NCBI GenBank assembly: GCA_001303955.1
Contig: LJUP01000012.1
Span: 1 to 36,233 of the forward strand
Direction of reading: 5' to 3'
Source of the DNA: Bacteroides sp. SM23_62
GTDB taxonomy: Bacteria > Bacteroidota > Bacteroidia > Bacteroidales > SM23-62
DNA: 36,233 nucleotides
The notes below the pieces were generated by a model, which did no database searches, had not been told where the DNA came from, and saw only the letters and a program-made list of their open reading frames with translations. This document shows, piece by piece, positions 1,661 to 24,935 of the stretch. The position numbers and the translations under genes are program-made. How positions within the stretch are numbered: the stretch's first letter is position 1; the number at the start of each line of letters is the position of its first letter.

Positions 1661-1682
1661 CTACTTAGTTAAACCTGAAAAA
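1661..1682. repeat. Left end of IS: direct repeat plus terminal inverted repeat
   Basis: CTACTTA (1661-1667) is followed by the terminal repeat core TTAAACCTGAAAAA. The transposase stop codon (TAA on the minus strand, 1665-1667) falls inside the direct repeat, so the target sequence may supply the stop. Confidence 0.7.
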
Positions 1683-3026
1683 CCCATCGGTTTTCCCAGG
1701 CTTGTATTTTTGATTATATTTTGTTCTCCAAAGCATCAAATAGTTGAGGCAAAAACTATTGGTTTTGGCTTTGATTTTCCGCAACATCTTCATCATATTG
1801 AACCAAGTAGCCGCCAGTAAGGTATTTATTGCATCTCCCTGAGATCCGCTGAGATAATTTCTGAGCATTCCATGGTCATGTTTTATGTGGCCGATTACAG
1901 GTTCAATCCCCGCCCTGGCCCTGAAGTACTTGCGTGTTTTCTGTTTTTGATAATAGGTAGCATCTGCCGGCAGCTTTCCCGGGATCTTTATCTCAGTACC
2001 TAAAACATTCTTTTTTCCCTTGTAACCTCTGTCAAGGATTGCAATTTTCGGAAACCGGCCTGTCAGCCTCTCAATTTGCCGCAGCTGGGGATCCAGTGTA
2101 GCTGCATCATATGGATTATCACTAAATGGCAAAGCTCCAACAATAATTCCCGACTTCATATTCCTGGCAATGGATGACTTATTGCCAAACTCATACTTAT
2201 TTGCTTCTTTCCCTTTTGCAATGTATCTCACTTCAGGTTCATGAAGACTGTAGGTTTTATTCTGATCTTTCTGCTTTTGACTCAAAACCTTCTTAAAGAT
2301 CAGGAGATCCTGCTGGTACCGATCCAGCTGTTCATCATTTAACTTCCTCTCCAGATCCCTGACGACCCTTCCGGCTATTACCTTAATCTTCCGGGCAGCG
2401 GCATTTGCCTTTTTGCGTCGCTTGGGATGCTCCCGAAAACGCTGGTCTATTATCAATTGCTTTAAGGTTCGCTTGTAACTCTGACGCAATATTATACCCT
2501 CATCTTTGGCAATCTCCCTGCACTTTTCGATAATCTTTTTCTGAAGTTTAGTATCTGTGGGATAGGTTATATTCTTTTCCTGGACGGTTGAGTCCACTAA
2601 CAACTGCTTCTCCTGGATCTCTTTTTTTTCAAAAAGTTCAATGGACAGTTTAAGTATCCGCTCCATCCTTTCTTCAACCAGGCGTTGCCTGAACTTGATC
2701 AGCTCGGTTGTATCAAAAGGCCAGTGATGTTGAAAATTCACCTCCTCACAGAAGTATTGCCAATAAGTATTCTCTTTCCACCTGTCTACCACACTTTCGT
2801 CACTTTCTTTGAACATCCTTTTCAGTAAGGTAACCCCGGATATCTTCCTGATTGGTATGGACGGTCTTCCGTTATCAGGGCAGTAATAAGCCGATAAATC
2901 CTGCTCCAACCCATCCCAGTTTATCTTCTCAGCAAGCCGGCATAACTCGTGCTCATTATTAATAAACTGAACCAATGGAACCTGGTACATGTTTAACTGG
3001 GGTGTCTTCTCTATTTTTCCGATCAT
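1665..3026 (-). CDS. IS5-like (IS1182-type) DDE transposase
   Basis: This is a 453-residue transposase read from the ATG at 3026; a TTG at 3065 would add 13 residues. The N-terminal part resembles the DUF772-type DNA-binding domain (RPSIPIRKISGVTLLKRM). A long basic helical region occupies the middle. The DDE catalytic positions are probably D in LLVDSTVQEKN, D in AILDRGYKG and E in RAGIEPVIGHIK. The enzyme cuts and joins the ends of its own element in the cytoplasm. It reads as intact, with no frameshift. I prefer the ATG because the TTG lies within a strong hairpin immediately upstream, which may limit translation. Family placement between the IS5 group and IS1182 is from motif memory, and the exact subgroup is uncertain. 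Confidence 0.93.
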   Translation of the reverse strand: MIGKIEKTPQLNMYQVPLVQFINNEHELCRLAEKINWDGLEQDLSAYYCPDNGRPSIPIRKISGVTLLKRMFKESDESVVDRWKENTYWQYFCEEVNFQHHWPFDTTELIKFRQRLVEERMERILKLSIELFEKKEIQEKQLLVDSTVQEKNITYPTDTKLQKKIIEKCREIAKDEGIILRQSYKRTLKQLIIDQRFREHPKRRKKANAAARKIKVIAGRVVRDLERKLNDEQLDRYQQDLLIFKKVLSQKQKDQNKTYSLHEPEVRYIAKGKEANKYEFGNKSSIARNMKSGIIVGALPFSDNPYDAATLDPQLRQIERLTGRFPKIAILDRGYKGKKNVLGTEIKIPGKLPADATYYQKQKTRKYFRARAGIEPVIGHIKHDHGMLRNYLSGSQGDAINTLLAATWFNMMKMLRKIKAKTNSFCLNYLMLWRTKYNQKYKPGKTDGFFRFN

Positions 3027-3146
3027 TGTGCAAGGTTTTACCCTATTTTCGGCAAAACCTTGCAATCTGAGATGATTATACCATCATTAATATTAACTTT
3101 ATATGCTTGATTATCAACATGGTAATAATTTTTTCAGGTTCGACTA
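1666..3146 (-). mobile_element. IS5-like insertion sequence
   Basis: The element holds one transposase gene and is bounded by imperfect terminal inverted repeats. The left end reads TAGTTAAACCTGAAAAA (1666-1682). The right end, read on the minus strand, is TAGTCGAACCTGAAAAA (3130-3146), 15 of 17 matching. A 7-bp direct repeat, CTACTTA, lies at 1661-1667 and 3144-3150 and partly overlaps the inverted repeats. The exact cut points and target-duplication length are therefore ambiguous (7 bp at most). Intact ends and a full-length transposase suggest a recent or active copy. The direct repeat implies that the GC-rich propeller gene and the AT-rich strip to the right were contiguous before insertion. 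Confidence 0.85.
3029..3064 (-). promoter_or_regulatory. Hairpin just upstream of the transposase start codon
   Basis: An 11-bp perfect inverted repeat, TGCAAGGTTTT (3029-3039) and AAAACCTTGCA (3054-3064), with a 14-base loop, ends two bases from the ATG at 3026. In the transposase mRNA it would form a stem next to the initiation site. Several IS elements are known to use such stems to stop read-through transcripts from being translated. That role here is inference. Confidence 0.5.
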
Positions 3147-3150
3147 CTTA
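3130..3150. repeat. Right end of IS: terminal inverted repeat plus direct repeat
   Basis: TTTTTCAGGTTCGACTA (3130-3146) is the inverse of the left end with two mismatches. It overlaps the second copy of CTACTTA (3144-3150). Confidence 0.7.
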
Positions 3151-3533
3151 TAATATTTTGCAATGTAAAGAAAAAAATTTGCCTCCCGTAAACGAGGAGA
3201 AATTGATTAATCCTGTAAACACGAATCCACCGAACAGGTAACACACTGGTTTACAGATTGACGAATTGAATTGAAACCTGAGCAGTATCCAGCATCATAT
3301 GAGGTTTATTGATTGCTCCACCGCAGAAATTCAAAAAATAGCAGGTTTAAATTTTTTCTAAAAGATCGTTCCATCCGGCAGATTTCGACTCCGTGAAGCA
3401 GGATAGTCGAAGCAGATCTCGGTCAAAAAAGTCAGATCCTGACTGTTTCAGTGAGTTCCTTTTGACCGGGAAACTGTAACGATCCAACAAATACTCCAGG
3501 ATTATCAAACTGATTCAGTCATTCTCCCCTATG

Positions 3534-3566
3534 CCATTCATCCCAAATTCAACCATTCATCCCAAA
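3534..3566 (+). promoter_or_regulatory. Direct repeat, possible LytTR-type operator
   Basis: CCATTCATCCCAAA occurs twice, at 3534-3547 and 3553-3566, with a 19-base period. Paired direct repeats of an ACCATTCATC-like word about two helical turns apart resemble the sites used by LytTR-family response regulators. The second copy ends about 45 bases before the putative -33 element, a usual distance for an activator. No regulator gene is in the window, so the assignment is tentative. Confidence 0.35.
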
Positions 3567-3611
3567 AATATCGCAGATCATAACAAAACCTATCCTGTGC
3601 ATTACAAGAAA

Positions 3612-3642
3612 TTGTGATCTGATATTGGCTACCCTAGATTTG
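3612..3642 (+). promoter_or_regulatory. Putative Bacteroidota-type promoter
   Basis: TAGATTTG (3635-3642) matches the Bacteroidota -7 consensus TAnnTTTG. TTG at 3612-3614 lies 20 bases upstream, an acceptable spacing for the -33 element. It points toward the hypothetical frame at 3674 and the dehydrogenase remnant. Confidence 0.35.
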
Positions 3643-3673
3643 ATCAGAATTTGAAGAACTAAAAAATTAAAAA

Positions 3674-4015
3674 GTGAATTCATCCAAAAATACCGTAAGT
3701 ATCGAAGGATTCGATTATCTAGTTCTCCTAATAGGGGGTATGTTAGATGAATTTTTTGTTCGCTTCAAACATACTTTACCGAGTGATAGGGCAACAGGCA
3801 ATAAAGCTATGGTTTCTGAACAACTATTCTGTACTCGGTTTGCTGGCGATTTAATCAAATTCACGTGTAATTCAGTGGTGGCTCTGGCACTTTATGTCCT
3901 ACTCAAACCAGTAAACAAAATTATCTCGTTGATTGAGGCATTTAATAAGTTGGTGCATAGGGTCATTTGTGCTATCAATCTGATTAATCGTTTATTTGAT
4001 CTGCTGCTTACCTGA
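3674..4015 (+). CDS. Hypothetical protein, doubtful
   Basis: An open frame of 113 codons starts at GTG and ends at TGA. I do not recognise it. It has a hydrophobic C-terminal half (VVALALYVLL and INLINRLFDLLL) and no known motif. It lies 31 bases after a plausible promoter and just before a clear pseudogene. It could be a real small membrane protein, a chance frame, or the antisense shadow of a decayed gene. The opposite strand has many stops in its matching frames, so no intact gene is hidden there. Confidence 0.25.
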   Translation: MNSSKNTVSIEGFDYLVLLIGGMLDEFFVRFKHTLPSDRATGNKAMVSEQLFCTRFAGDLIKFTCNSVVALALYVLLKPVNKIISLIEAFNKLVHRVICAINLINRLFDLLLT

Positions 4016-4078
4016 AGAAAACTACCTGTAAATCTGACTTAAAACCAGAAGAGAAAATTTGAACAGATCTGAAGCGTA

Positions 4079-4597
4079 AAGGATGTTCTTGCATTACAGG
4101 AGATCCAAAAACCTGTTCCCAAGGCCAATGACATCCTGATTAAACTACATGCGGCATCCGTAAATCCACTTGACTGGCATTTCCTGAGAGGTGTACCATT
4201 TCCGGCCAGCATAGGGCGCTGACCAATCAGACCAAAGAGACGGGTTGAAGCAGTTGGCGGAACCGTAAAGCAGTTTCAGCCGGGACAAAGTGTCCTGATT
4301 AATGGTGCGTCTGGTGTTGTGGGTATGATAGCAGTGCAGTTCGCCAAATCATTAGGTTTCAGATCTTGAACGTGCATTAAGTCCCAAAGGAATTCGTGTC
4401 ATCATCGGATATTCTTCTCCGGTTCTTTTGTTACAGACCATGTTCCTGGGACCATTCCATTGATTTCAATGACCGGGACCAGGAAAATAGGTCTCATAGG
4501 AGATGCGAACGCAAACCATAAAGACCTGGTTTTTCTGAAGGAGCTTCTTGAAGCCAGGAAAGTAATGCCTGTTATAGATAGCCATTACACCACATCT
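4079..4597 (+). pseudogene. Degraded zinc-type alcohol dehydrogenase / quinone oxidoreductase (MDR superfamily)
   Basis: Pieces of an MDR enzyme appear in order but in different frames. The N-terminal GroES-like segment includes DILIKLHAASVNPLDWHFLRG. After an in-frame TGA comes VEAVGGTVKQF joined directly to PGQSVLINGASGVVG, so about 80 residues that normally separate these motifs are gone. After a second gap and a frame change comes DLERALSPKGIRVIIGYSS. A further frame change leads to ISMTGTRKIGLIG and LEARKVMPVIDSHY, the normal C-terminal region. The last change is explained by a 5-base tandem duplication (CCATTCCATT, about 4452-4461). Family members are about 320-340 residues NAD(P)H-dependent reductases. 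This copy has lost most of the catalytic and Rossmann domains and cannot be functional. Confidence 0.85.
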
Positions 4598-4787
4598 GCG
4601 TTTTTTATAAATACGGATAAAGCCCTCAATCCAGAACGTTTCCTACACGTAACTGCCTTCCGTAACCTGATCCTCTCGAAACCCTGCCCTGATCTTAATC
4701 ACTGACTTCTATTGTATCCCGTCAATTGAAAGATCCAAATAATTTTATATATTCTAGGATTAAAAATTTGCACAGGAATCAAAAACG

Positions 4788-5929
4788 ATGAAAAAATCAA
4801 TCCTCTTCATAGGTAGTATACTACTCCTGGGAAAATGTACACAACCTGAAGTAAGTCGGGAAATCCCGGCTTCTTTGCAGGAGGTCTACGAAAATGCCTT
4901 TTTGGTTGGAAGTGCCTTGAATGAAGGAATCGTCTCTGGTGCAGATAGGGCTTCTCAGGCTATTGTACTTGAGCAATTCAATAGCATCACCGCAGAAAAT
5001 GTCATGAAGGCCGGGCCAATTAACCCACAGCCAGGCGTATATAATTTTACTCCAGCTGATGAGTTTGTTGAATTCGGAGAAGAAAATGACATGTTCATTA
5101 TCGGCCATACATTGGTTTGGCATAATCAAACCCCTGCCTTGTTTTTCCTGGATGAGCATGGAAATCCCAATACCCACGAAGCCCAGGTTGAACGAATGAG
5201 AAACCATATCGAAACAGTGGCAGGCAGGGTTCATGCATGGGATGTGGTGAATGAAGTAATAGATAATGACGGTTCCTACCGACCAACAACCCGGATTAAG
5301 GGTATCGGAAATGGAGATAAACTCGTAAAACTGGCCTTTAAGTTTGCCGGCGAATACGCACCCGGTGCCGAGTTATATTACAACGATTTTAACGCCTGGC
5401 GACCGGCTAAAAGGGATGGTATTGCGAGGCTTGTCAGAATATTACAGGAAGAAGGGATCCGGATTGATGGCGTGGGCATTCAGGGTCATTGGGGACTCAA
5501 TTACCCCAGAACAGAGTACATCGAGGCAGCCATTGATACTTTTGCCTCACTGGGTGTGGAGGTAATGATTACTGAGCTGGGTGTGGATGTCCTTCCCTTG
5601 ACCAGAGAAGGCCAGATAATCGGTAGCGTTATGAGTGATAAACAGTTTCAGTCAGAGGAATTCAAGGAGTTCCTGGATCCCTTTACAGATGAACTTCTTG
5701 CCGGTATACAACAAAAACTTGCTGATCGTTATGCTGAGTTATTCGGTATTTTTATAGTAAACGTGACAAAATTGACCGGGTAACGCTGTGGGGTGTACAT
5801 GATGGCATGTCCTGGAAGAATGGCTATCCGGTACCGGGAAGAACAAACCATCCTTTGTTGTATGACAGGGACAAAAAAGCCAAACCTGCCCTTGATGCTG
5901 TTTTGAGCATACCGCATAACATAGAATAA
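4788..5929 (+). CDS. GH10 endo-1,4-beta-xylanase, frameshifted near the 3' end
   Basis: The frame from ATG 4788 runs 331 codons to a TAA at 5781-5783. The GH10 C-terminal strand (KRDKIDRVTLWGVHDGMSW, then the YPVPGRTNHPLLYD segment) continues in the next frame to TAA at 5927-5929. One extra T in the T run at 5749-5753 would restore a 380-residue enzyme. Recognisable GH10 parts are GHTLVWHNQTP, acid/base E156 in WDVVNEVID, and nucleophile E263 in MITELGVDVLP. The residue two after the nucleophile is Gly where GH10 enzymes normally have Asp (TELD). The signal sequence ends LLLGKC, a weak lipobox. The enzyme would hydrolyse beta-1,4-xylan outside the cytoplasm. It is either truncated and mildly decayed, or the frameshift is an assembly error. 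Confidence 0.85.
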
Positions 5930-5988
5930 CATGTGATACTTCGGATCATAAAGGAATAAAATTGTGACGTATTATACAACTGATAACA

Positions 5989-14736: not shown

Positions 14737-15333
14737 ATGAAAACACTGATTAAAACTACCGTTTCTGCCGGCATAAAAATGTCTGTATGTTTTATTTTTT
14801 GGTGCCTGGTGATTTTTCCATCGTCCAGTGCTCAGACTTATGCCATCGGGGCAGATCTTTCTTTTATAAAACAGGCAGAAGATAATGGTTTTGCTTTCAA
14901 GAACCATGGGTATAACTGGATACGCTTAAGGTTGTTTCATACGCCGACACAATTGCCCAATGACATGGAATATACCATTGCATTGGCCAGGAAGGCCAAA
15001 CAAATGGGGTTCAGATTCCTGCTCGATTTGCGGGAATGTTTGAATTTTACCGCAAATGAATACAAGAAAGACGTTATTGTTGTTGAAGCAGCATACAACT
15101 GGACACCCAGGGAATATATAGACAGAAATGCACCATTTCCAGAATCGCCTGAGGGGCAGCAAGAATTTTTGGAAGAAGTCAACAGGATCGTCTTAAGTGT
15201 TCCTGACAACAGGGGTTGTGGAGTTTTCTGGTGGGAACCTGCAGTATCAAGGAGAGGATCCAGGAGTTTTTTTGATGAGGAAGGAAATGCCTTGCCGGTG
15301 ATCAACGTGTTTGACAAGTATACCAGAAACTAG
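14737..15333 (+). pseudogene. Internally deleted GH53 endo-beta-1,4-galactanase
   Basis: The frame is open for 198 codons, but GH53 enzymes are about 330-400 residues. A signal peptide (to SSAQ, ~33) is followed by the GH53 start ADLSFIKQAEDNG. Here FAFK runs straight into NHGYNWIRLRLF, dropping about 13 residues. After FRFLLDL the chain jumps to RECLNFTANEYKKD, skipping roughly 170 residues of the barrel, including the Asn-Glu that carries the acid/base. The nucleophile Glu (~117, VIVVEAAYNW) and the C-terminal GVFWWEPAV remain. Both deletions keep the frame. The product could not be a working galactanase. It could still be translated as a short secreted protein. Confidence 0.85.
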
Positions 15334-18336: not shown

Positions 18337-18696
18337 ATGAAAGACGTGGTATCATATTGTGGACTCATTTGCAAAGGGTGTCCAATTCTTTGGGCGACAA
18401 ATGAAGAAAATGAGGAGTTGAAAGAGAAAATGAAGATTGAAATCTCAAGATTATGCAATGAGCTATATAAAACAGAATACTGTTCAGAAGATATTACAGA
18501 TTGTGATGGTTGCCTGGCAGAGAATGGAAGATTGTTTCCAGGGTGTGTTAACTGTCAAATCAGGAATTGTGCCAGGGAGAAAAAAATTTCAAACTGTGCA
18601 TATTGCGGCGAATACATCTGTGAAAAACTTGAAACATTCTTCAAAGATAATCCGGAATCAAAATCCCGCTTGGACTTTATCAGATCAGTGCTTTAA
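18337..18696 (+). CDS. DUF3795 domain-containing Cys-rich protein
   Basis: A 119-residue cytoplasmic protein with many Cys residues in paired patterns (CGLICKGCPI, DCDGCLAENG, CVNCQIRNCA, NCAYCGEYIC), the usual layout of DUF3795. The Cys arrangement suggests metal or Fe-S binding, which is inference. Start ATG 18337 follows the glycosidase stop by one base, so translation may be coupled, although the two proteins have no evident shared role. Confidence 0.85.
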   Translation: MKDVVSYCGLICKGCPILWATNEENEELKEKMKIEISRLCNELYKTEYCSEDITDCDGCLAENGRLFPGCVNCQIRNCAREKKISNCAYCGEYICEKLETFFKDNPESKSRLDFIRSVL

Positions 18697-18757
18697 GGTC
18701 TGAATTGTTTGGAGAATAGCAATCAGGTAATCCAAAGAAATGTGAATTTAGAGCAGC

Positions 18758-19251
18758 ATGATTAGCATTACGGATCATGTATTTTATCCACTTGACAGAA
18801 ACCTGGATAACAGATTGTTGAACAGGCTGCGTCATTCAGAACTTGAGTTTATTCATGAATTATCCAACCTGTCGGAAAAATACAATATGATTTCTGAGAT
18901 TGAGGGCGATAAAATGATCTGGAAAGACGGGGAAAATAACCAGCACCTGATTTTCATTTCAACATCAAAGCATTTGATATAAACAAACTTATCGAAGTTT
19001 ACAGAGAAGCTAAACAAAATTCAAATATTCAAAATTTTATTTTTATCGATCAGGCACATACATTCAAGCAGGCTTATGACATATTCAGGTTGAATCAGTT
19101 AAGTTATATGCAGCACTGTAATCATTTCAGGATCAAAAAAATCAGACATAAAGCCCAAGAACTTAAGTTAACAGGTGAGAGTTTATATACCTTATTTAGC
19201 AGATTGAAACCGCATCAAAAATATCGATGGGGAAAATGTTTTGTCAATTAA
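18758..19251 (+). pseudogene. First half of an unrecognised tandem-domain protein, frameshifted
   Basis: From ATG 18758 the frame stops at 18982 (74 codons). The downstream frame is open from about 18955 to TAA 19249-19251 and reads on naturally: FDINKLIEVYREAKQN, FIFIDQAHTFKQAYDIFR and LSYMQHCNHFR. One extra T in the T run at 18957-18959 joins the two parts. The restored domain matches the protein encoded just downstream: an Ile-Trp strand (DKMIW / EYIIW), a helix (DINKLIEVY / NIDTFIRLY) and the end motif DIFRxxxxSYxxHCNxxR. I do not recognise the family. A C-terminal basic helix links it to the next frame. Confidence 0.6.
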
Positions 19252-19553
19252 AAAAAGCCATTGAATCATTGGAAGAGGAGTGTAAAAGAAGGCAGCTAAA
19301 TCAAATTGTTGAAAATGAATACATCATCTGGATGAACCAGCGAAATGAAATCGAATGCATGATTTTGTTGGTTTATGATCCTTCCAATATTGATACATTT
19401 ATAAGACTCTATTCAAGAATTAAGAAGGAGGATATCAAACTCACCTATTGCATAGTTCATCAAATCCCTGACGGTAAATATGAATTTGATATCTTCAGGA
19501 TAACCGAAATGAGTTACCTGGAACATTGTAACCGTGTAAGGCCAAGAAGATGA
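19227..19553 (+). CDS. Second half of the tandem-domain protein (hypothetical)
   Basis: A 108-residue frame from ATG 19227 (or 19236, MFCQLKKAIESL) overlaps the end of the preceding frame by 25 bases. It repeats the preceding domain: a charged helix, ENEYIIWMNQ, MILLVYDP, NIDTFIRLYSRIKKED, then EFDIFRITEMSYLEHCNRVR. One extra A in the A run at 19233-19236 would fuse both halves into one protein of about 265 residues with two copies of the domain. As it stands it may be translated separately. The family is unknown to me. No signal peptide or membrane segment is visible, so it is probably cytoplasmic. Confidence 0.6.
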   Translation: MGKMFCQLKKAIESLEEECKRRQLNQIVENEYIIWMNQRNEIECMILLVYDPSNIDTFIRLYSRIKKEDIKLTYCIVHQIPDGKYEFDIFRITEMSYLEHCNRVRPRR

Positions 19554-19575: not shown

Positions 19576-21114
19576 ATGGGATGCATAAAGTGCATATCAG
19601 TTTGGGTAACCTTGGTTGTCATGATCATTGGTTGTCAGGAATTAAAGCAAGATGCACCAATAGATGTGAAGGAATTAACCATCTCCCAAATTCATAAGGC
19701 TTATGAAAAAGGAACCTATAACAGTCAACAGCTCGTATCTGCCTTCCTAGCGCAAATTGAGGAGTACGATCGTAAAATTAACGCACTGACATTTATCAAT
19801 CCGGATGCCCTTTCCCTGGCAAAACAACTAGATGTTGAATATCAAAGGACAAAGGTTTTCCGCCCACTTCATGGGATCCCTCTGATTGTGAAAGATAACA
19901 TCAATACCAAGGGACTTCCAACTACTGCCGGATCACTGGCGCTTCAAGATTTTATACCGGATGAGGATGCTTTTATCATACAAAAACTGGTGAATGCAGG
20001 AGCCATCATCCTTGCTAAATCAAATATGGCCGAGTGGGCTTTCAGTCCAATGCATACGGAAAGTTCCACCACGGGCACAACCCGCAATCCCTATAACCTT
20101 GAGCATGTTCCTGCTGGATCGAGCGGAGGAACCGCTTCCTCGGTAGCAGCAAATCTTGGTGTAATCGGATTGGGCACCGATACCGGTAATTCAATTAGGG
20201 GACCTTCCTCCCATTGCGCTCTTGTGGGTTTCAGAACCACGCTGGGATTGATCAGTAGAAGTGCCATCATACCATTATTTTTGCGGAACGATGTGGTTGG
20301 ACCATTGTGCCGGACTGTAGAGGATGCCACGAAAGTTCTTGAAATCATTGCGGGATTTGATCCGGCAGATCCCATAACCAAATATTCCGAGGCTAAAATA
20401 CCTGATAATTACACCCAATTTTTAATCAAAGATGGTCTTCAGGGCTCCAGCATCGGTGTGCTTAGAGAATTAAGTAATGATCATCCAGACCCGGAAATAA
20501 AGAAATTATTTGAGAAAGCAATTCTGGATCTGGATTCACTCGGTGCACAGATAAAAGATCCGATATTCATTCCGGGTTTCTCGTCCTTAAGGCAAAATCA
20601 ATGGTGTTCAGAATTCAGGAAAGACCTGGAAACCTATCTGGCAGAATATGTCAAAAATGACACCCTGAAAACTTTAGAAGATATTATCAAAGTTGGCTCC
20701 AGTTCTGAGTTCACAAAGGAACAATTGAAATTTTATGCTAACAGCAGTGGCAGGTACGAAAATCCTGACGTTGAATGTTTAGATGCATACACGGACGTAC
20801 GTCGTATTGCCTTTCGTGAAGCTGTTGAAAAAGTAATGGATTCATTAGAGTTGGATGCCTTAATATATCCGTCCTGGAATAACCAACCTGCCAGCATTGA
20901 TTCTTTCGAAGTGGAGTATAAAGGAGACAATAATCAGATCATTGCACCCCATACCGGACAACCTGCCTTTACCGTTCCGATGGGTTTTTGCAAAGACAAT
21001 CTGCCTGCGGGACTTCAATTTCTGGGGAGAATGTATGATGAACCAATTTTAATCAGGCTGGCATATTCATATGAACAAGGTACAAAACACAGGGAAGCCC
21101 CCAAGATCAATTAA
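19576..21114 (+). CDS. Amidase signature family hydrolase, lipoprotein
   Basis: A 512-residue amidase with a lipoprotein-like signal (VVMIIGC, Cys20). The amidase signature Ser-cisSer-Lys triad is present: Lys106 in PLIVKDNI, Ser182/183 in GSSGGTASS, and nucleophile Ser206 in GTDTGNSIRGP, where Asn replaces the more usual Gly before Ser. The C-terminal YPSWNN and HTGQPAFTVPMGF segments are normal for the family. It would hydrolyse an amide bond in the periplasm or at the outer membrane; the substrate cannot be told. The gene stands 22 bases after the hypothetical gene and reads as intact. Confidence 0.9.
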   Translation: MGCIKCISVWVTLVVMIIGCQELKQDAPIDVKELTISQIHKAYEKGTYNSQQLVSAFLAQIEEYDRKINALTFINPDALSLAKQLDVEYQRTKVFRPLHGIPLIVKDNINTKGLPTTAGSLALQDFIPDEDAFIIQKLVNAGAIILAKSNMAEWAFSPMHTESSTTGTTRNPYNLEHVPAGSSGGTASSVAANLGVIGLGTDTGNSIRGPSSHCALVGFRTTLGLISRSAIIPLFLRNDVVGPLCRTVEDATKVLEIIAGFDPADPITKYSEAKIPDNYTQFLIKDGLQGSSIGVLRELSNDHPDPEIKKLFEKAILDLDSLGAQIKDPIFIPGFSSLRQNQWCSEFRKDLETYLAEYVKNDTLKTLEDIIKVGSSSEFTKEQLKFYANSSGRYENPDVECLDAYTDVRRIAFREAVEKVMDSLELDALIYPSWNNQPASIDSFEVEYKGDNNQIIAPHTGQPAFTVPMGFCKDNLPAGLQFLGRMYDEPILIRLAYSYEQGTKHREAPKIN

Positions 21115-23804: not shown

Positions 23805-24935
23805 ATGCAATATATACCATTCCATTTTATTTTCATTTTACTGGTGTTGTGTAAGCCATAGTGCTTTGGGCAAAATCCTGTTATAAAGGATATTGGCATG
23901 TCAGATCCCCATATACAGGTATTCCATGATACCGTCTATTTTTATTGCGGCCATGATTCAAGTCCTGATGATGTAACCTGGATTACGAAGGACTGGCGGG
24001 TTTTCTCCACAACTGACCTGGTTAATTGGATATCGGAGGGGACCATTTCACCAAAAGAAAATTACATGGATGATGCCAGCACTGACTACTGGGCTGGAGA
24101 TGCGGCTACACGAAACGGAGAATACTATTTTTATTTTTCAGATAGAAAAAGGGGGATTGGAGTAATGAGATCTGAATCTCCCAAGGGTCCATTTATGGAT
24201 GCCCTCGGTAAACCGCTTCTGTCACCAATACATGATCCGACAATTGTCATAGATGATGATCCAAATAAAACCCCATATATTATTTATGAACCCTATGAAT
24301 GTGTTGGAGCTGTCGGGAACGGACATCATTTAAACGAATTTGCCCATGGAAGCTTTTTTATGTGGAAAGGGCAGTTTTATCACATCTGGTACTACCTCAG
24401 GAATGGCTATAAATATCACGAGTCCATTATTACCTACTGCCATTTCGATGAAAATGGCGCCATGGTTACTGACACAGATTTTTTAGATAAGCATTTTACC
24501 ACGGGAGTTGGACAATATGATGCATCCTGGCCGGAAACTCAGGCAGAGTGGTACTACAAGATTTCACATGGTATTAAGAAAGAAGGAACCAGAAAAGATG
24601 GATTTGTGCTTACTGACATCAAGGATGGCAGCTGGGTGAAATTTGCCAATATGAATTTTGAGAGAAGACGCCGTTTGTTTGAGGCAAGCATATCTCTTTC
24701 TGGAGGAAACGGAAATATTGAGATCCGGGCTGATAGCCTGACTGGATCACTGCTGAGGGTTGCTACGATCTACCCGATAGTGAACCCGGATAACCATCAG
24801 GTTATATCATGTGAATTAGGTGGTGTCACTGGTAAGAGGAATATACTTGTGAAGTTTAACGGAGATGAGAAAAGCACTTTTAAATTTGATTGGTTTAACT
24901 TAACGGATTCAGTGAATAAGGTGAACATATATTGA
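23805..24935 (+). pseudogene. GH43-CBM6 glycosidase with an amber stop in the signal peptide
   Basis: ATG 23805 opens a typical signal peptide (MQYIPFHFIFILLVLCKP) that hits TAG at 23859-23861. The same frame continues CFGQNPVIKDIGMSDPHIQVF into the enzyme. The first Met after the stop is at 23898, which would give a protein without signal or the first residues of the propeller. GH43 elements are the catalytic Asp in MSDPHIQVFHD and Asp in IHDPTIVIDDD. The region where the acid Glu blade should lie is short: YIIYEPYE runs quickly to NGHHLNEFAHGSFFMWKG, so about 70-80 residues may be missing in frame. A CBM6 domain follows from GVGQYDASWPETQAEW to FDWFNL. It would have acted on arabinose- or xylose-containing glycans. 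Confidence 0.8.

Follow-up and report, generated by a model that had tools for sequence, protein, structure and literature searches.

Gene Organization at the Locus

The window, i.e., the whole stretch of 36,233 nucleotides that was analysed, carried three overlapping open frames on the forward strand, flanked by a DUF3795 gene that stops at 18696 and an amidase gene that starts at 19576. The first frame was open at 18752–18979, with an ATG at 18758 and a stop codon at 18980–18982; the second was open at 18940–19248 and terminated by a TAA at 19249–19251; the third was open at 19200–19550 and closed by a TGA ending at 19553. The coordinates and frames given in the first-pass annotation agreed with the listing of open reading frames. 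Joining the three frames over two single-base frame changes resulted in one protein of ~265 residues. The upstream neighbour on the same strand, located 61 bp before the gene (18337–18696), encoded a DUF3795 protein (Pfam PF12675, E 5e-14), and an amidase-family protein (Pfam PF01425, E 3e-98) was encoded by the same strand 22 bp after the gene (19576–21114).

Two copies of one domain were delimited in the joined protein, all parts of which lay on the forward strand. The N-terminal part of copy 1, consisting of the 'FYPLDR' start, the helices and the I-W strand, was found in the first frame (18758–18954) and matched positions 20–75 of a profile built from foreign homologs (E 4.5e-6). The first frame change, where one base was missing, was placed at 18940–18960 by the frames, the ungapped alignment of the two copies and the profile register; it interrupted copy 1 after profile position 75 and before position 81. 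The C-terminal part of copy 1, ending with DIFRLNQLSYMQHCNHFR, was encoded by the second frame (18955–19140; profile positions 81–140, 39 bits). The linker joining the copies (19141–19170) was unaligned between two profile matches. The N-terminal helix of copy 2, 'GESLYTLFSRLKPHQKYRWGK', was found in the second frame as well (19171–19236), where its match to profile positions 14–37 was weak alone (8 bits); this helix paired with 'DDIYSLFSTGQDFPKPGRKKWAQ' of an intact two-domain relative (L063). The second frame change, also with one base missing, was located at GGGGAAAATG (19227–19240) from the sequence and a heptamer scan, and an in-frame G GGA AAA heptamer (19230–19236) lay inside this site, the codon phase being derived by hand from the coordinates. 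The main part of copy 2, ending with DIFRITEMSYLEHCNR, occupied the third frame (19237–19550; profile positions 41–140, 93 bits, E 1e-27).

Window positions 4788–31800 held a dense polysaccharide-degradation cluster that encoded GH10, PL8, GH53, DUF5060 glycosidase, rhamnosidase-like and GH43-CBM6 proteins, and also heparinase- and sialidase-like proteins recognized by eye. The GH10 glycosidase gene (4788–5940, +) contained one frame change near 5740–5755 in a TTTTT run, with the remainder of the domain in another frame. The middle of the GH53 protein (14737–15333, +) was seemingly missing, residue 97 already corresponding to profile position 223, and the GH43 match at 23898–24935 (+) ended at profile position 138 of 288 and was followed by CBM6; in-frame deletions in these two genes were possible. 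Region 1–1660 (54% GC) had no long reading frame and adjoined an IS transposase gene (1665–3065, −), and no frame of at least 115 aa was found at 3084–4763, which may hold decayed genes.

Evidence for a Duplicated Domain

The first-pass annotation had described an internal duplication of one domain, interrupted by two single-base losses. When the frames were joined, copies 1 and 2 were aligned end to end over 97 residues without gaps, and the score of 111 exceeded the best one from 5000 shuffled sequences (63; Gumbel P ~2e-9). Because this alignment crossed the first break ungapped, the break was best explained by a one-base offset, and each of the two frame changes had the sense of one missing base, as had been proposed.

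Further, an independent profile was built from four foreign proteins only, with the window sequence left out, and compared with every open frame of the window that had at least 20 residues (1046 in total). Exactly three frames were picked, namely the third (E 1e-27), the second (4e-13) and the first (5e-6), with the next best frame at E 2.5. The profile positions were covered in order across the frames (20–75, 81–140, 14–37 and 41–140), which indicated two full copies with both breaks inside the domains; the 14–37 match corresponded to the starting helix of copy 2 in the second frame, and the remainder of copy 2 was in the third. The duplication was thus borne out by both the alignment and the foreign profile. 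The extent of the repeat had to be revised, however: two copies were indeed present, but copy 2 began earlier than originally described, at about 19180 ('SLYTLFSRLKPHQKYRW'), hence the second break was also inside a domain and not in the linker.

Both copies carried the C-terminal motif D-I-F-R-x4-S-Y-x2-H-C-N. Given the whole-domain match to a profile built without the window sequence, it was concluded from sequence comparison that the gene belongs, in broken form, to a family of domains of ~130 residues, labelled 'DIFR-SYLEHCNR' in this analysis, and is not a random reading-frame accident.

Homologs and Their Distribution

A degenerate DNA pattern for D-I-F-R-x4-S-Y-x2-H-C was scanned over GTDB genomes, and nine loci were obtained. 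Four were clear relatives, one was cut by a contig end (L028, BMS3Abin03), and the other four (L029, L031, L033 and L034) were chance matches in short frames. The clear relatives, all unannotated, were found in distant bacteria of environmental origin, namely an unplaced bacterium (L032, 6232–6663), Melioribacteraceae of the Ignavibacteriota (L030, 1262–1687), Bacteroidales (L027, 338–775) and Anaerolineales (L026/L041). They were intact genes for proteins of ~140 aa, present in one copy per genome. The same whole domain and the same motifs were shared by these proteins and the window gene, the L032 protein being 23–35% identical to each window copy; in contrast to the two copies and broken frames of the window gene, each relative had one domain per gene and an intact frame. 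The single domain was usually the form of the family, which the first-pass annotation had not foreseen.

A two-domain relative (L063, 10056–10808) was recovered by a phylum-wide search around the genome of L032. Its uninterrupted 250-aa protein contained two copies, was aligned with the read-through window protein over both of them (score 197) and matched the single-domain profile twice (E 7e-40). It resembled the window gene in its fused pair of copies and in their order, and differed from it in its single uninterrupted frame and in its first copy, which had drifted (WDVFGLRQQRGLIHWNRF) and lost most of the DIFR/SYLEHC motif. Since an uninterrupted two-domain relative exists, the restored two-domain architecture was considered genuine, in line with the continuous protein that had been postulated. 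It had also been suggested that a lack of homologs with the repeat, or orthologs occurring as two separate genes, would speak against such a protein. The repeat was common to at least four lineages, and the relatives were not solely two separate genes with different starts, because the 250-aa protein had both copies in one frame.

No conserved partner gene was found among the neighbouring genes of the homologs, which differed in every relative. In one instance (L043, 7234–9664), a single-domain relative was located downstream of a possible outer-membrane protein and a weakly matching PBP-like periplasmic protein. The gene directly upstream of the Anaerolineales relative (L046, 8140–8736) encoded a 198-aa protein without a Pfam match.

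Searches of Pfam, NCBIfam, PHROGs and PADLOC gave no family match above the curated cut-off or with E < 0.001, so that the earlier description of the protein as undescribed holds against these libraries and the PDB, where sequence matches (antibody light chains and a hydrogenase subunit) were at chance level. No homolog was recovered when the protein was searched directly against 99 relatives, the phage and plasmid collections and genome contigs, and a weak match from one such search (L005) was rejected when the motif was seen to be absent. The two-copy profile gave scattered weak matches in 393 genomes of the order, all with E > 5e-4, and no relatives were found in IMG/VR. Scans widened from the match genomes to their class, order and phylum recovered almost no further members, except L063. 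In all, 1891 genomes were searched, and the members were confined to the genomes named above, including that of the window. The motif scan covered 84,980 species and found members in five, although with so strict a motif distant members could be missed. The family is therefore very rare and scattered over Bacteroidota, Ignavibacteriota and Chloroflexota. Such a distribution suggests gene transfer or repeated loss, between which an eight-row tree with unresolved branching was too poor to discriminate.

Predicted Structure and Conserved Residues

The structure predicted by AlphaFold from five sequences was an alpha+beta model (pLDDT 89.4, pTM 0.85) with the elements H7-17, H25-36, H39-53, E56-61, E64-68, E75-82, H88-101, E105-114, E117-126 and E132-138. 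In the predicted fold, three N-terminal helices are followed by a meander of three strands, which leads into a fourth helix and another three strands. The same core was obtained with the third-frame ORF of the window as the first row (pLDDT 80.6).

Only W67, D121, F123, H133 and N135 (L032 numbering) were invariant in all eight domains. Conservation was strongest at the C-terminal hairpin (D-I-F-R....S-Y-L-E-H-C-N-R). Since the Cys of HCN was replaced in the two-domain relative, cysteine chemistry was considered unlikely.

A Foldseek search against the PDB gave no match at E ≤ 0.001, the best TM-scores being ~0.4–0.5. The top match was the restriction-endonuclease-like 3ijm (E 0.005, TM 0.41), and 9y1l and 3ajv of the same fold class were matched by the second, third-frame model. 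These proteins, which were among the top weak matches, shared with the predicted domain the order of a helix, three strands, a helix and strands, at TM-scores of 0.33–0.45 and E > 0.005. No TM-score above 0.5 to a member of the PD-(D/E)XK superfamily was obtained, the best being about 0.41–0.45 (3ijm and 9y1l), and the D ... (D/E)-x-K pattern was not found on strands 2 and 3, the third strand being without Lys and reading E-C-M or E-A-L, or H-L-I or S-I-L in the drifting copies. Because the catalytic E-x-K was absent, membership among the nucleases was not claimed. Literature searches on the heptamer and on 3ijm yielded nothing useful.

Origin of the Frame Changes

It was proposed that the locus, in an environmental and probably Bacteroidota genome, is probably, although by no means certainly, a recent pseudogene of a two-domain protein. 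It would be a disabled gene for a protein in which an alpha+beta domain of ~130 residues, rare, unnamed and cytoplasmic, occurs as a fused pair and, if the window sequence is right, no complete protein would be made in this genome. Real mutations were favoured by ten large genes (479–768 aa) that were intact on the same contig, and ten other contigs of the assembly had a normal coding density (0.82–0.97), which indicated that the assembly was not riddled with indels. On the other hand, each loss was in or close to a short run, and the T5 run of the GH10 gene contained another single-base break, the third; consensus errors would therefore be possible, in which case the gene would be intact. An uninterrupted gene in the living organism, with both breaks arising from consensus or assembly errors, was accordingly regarded as a plausible reading, held at less than even confidence. 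Each of the three single-base breaks seen in the window was a loss in or close to a short homopolymer, the base composition by codon position was not eroded and still resembled coding sequence in all three frames, and an intact two-domain relative exists. The intact large genes and the normal density of the other contigs count against such errors, and a pair of them within a gene of 0.8 kb would be locally excessive.

Two further explanations were judged very unlikely. Programmed −1 ribosomal frameshifting at G GGA AAA could link, at a minimum, the second frame to the third, as the heptamer is in the correct frame and follows the X XXY YYZ pattern, and slippage by −1 at this site yields exactly a continuous copy 2. 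However, 201 such heptamers occurred on the same strand of the window, so that chance is adequate to account for this one; the first 73 bases downstream fold weakly (−6.3 kcal/mol), no comparable heptamer lies in frame at the first break, and the intact relative needs no shift. The third frame could also be a functional gene in its own right, encoding about 108 aa, being open from an ATG at 19227, containing the best-scoring stretch in the profile search and giving a folded core in AlphaFold. It would lack, though, the N-terminal helices present in every single-domain homolog, and the helix that it misses can be read just upstream, in the second frame.

Proposed Function and Significance

The Asp, His and Asn of the hairpin together with the Trp of the second strand may form a ligand-binding or catalytic pocket. 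On this view, a lone domain would act as a dimer, and the two copies of the fused form would make up an internal pseudo-dimer that leaves one of them free to drift; the loss of the motif from the first copy of L063 may be compared. The pocket and the dimer, taken together, are put forward as speculation. Equally tentative is the wider proposal that these domains form a bacterial family not described before, whose fold is missing from the PDB and which gene transfer has spread thinly over distant phyla; it would exist in single and fused-pair forms and might have a novel enzymatic or binding role based on a D/H/N/W site. The analysis adds a small real protein family that is absent from the curated libraries searched, and the family sequences, the motif and a confident model now make it searchable and testable.
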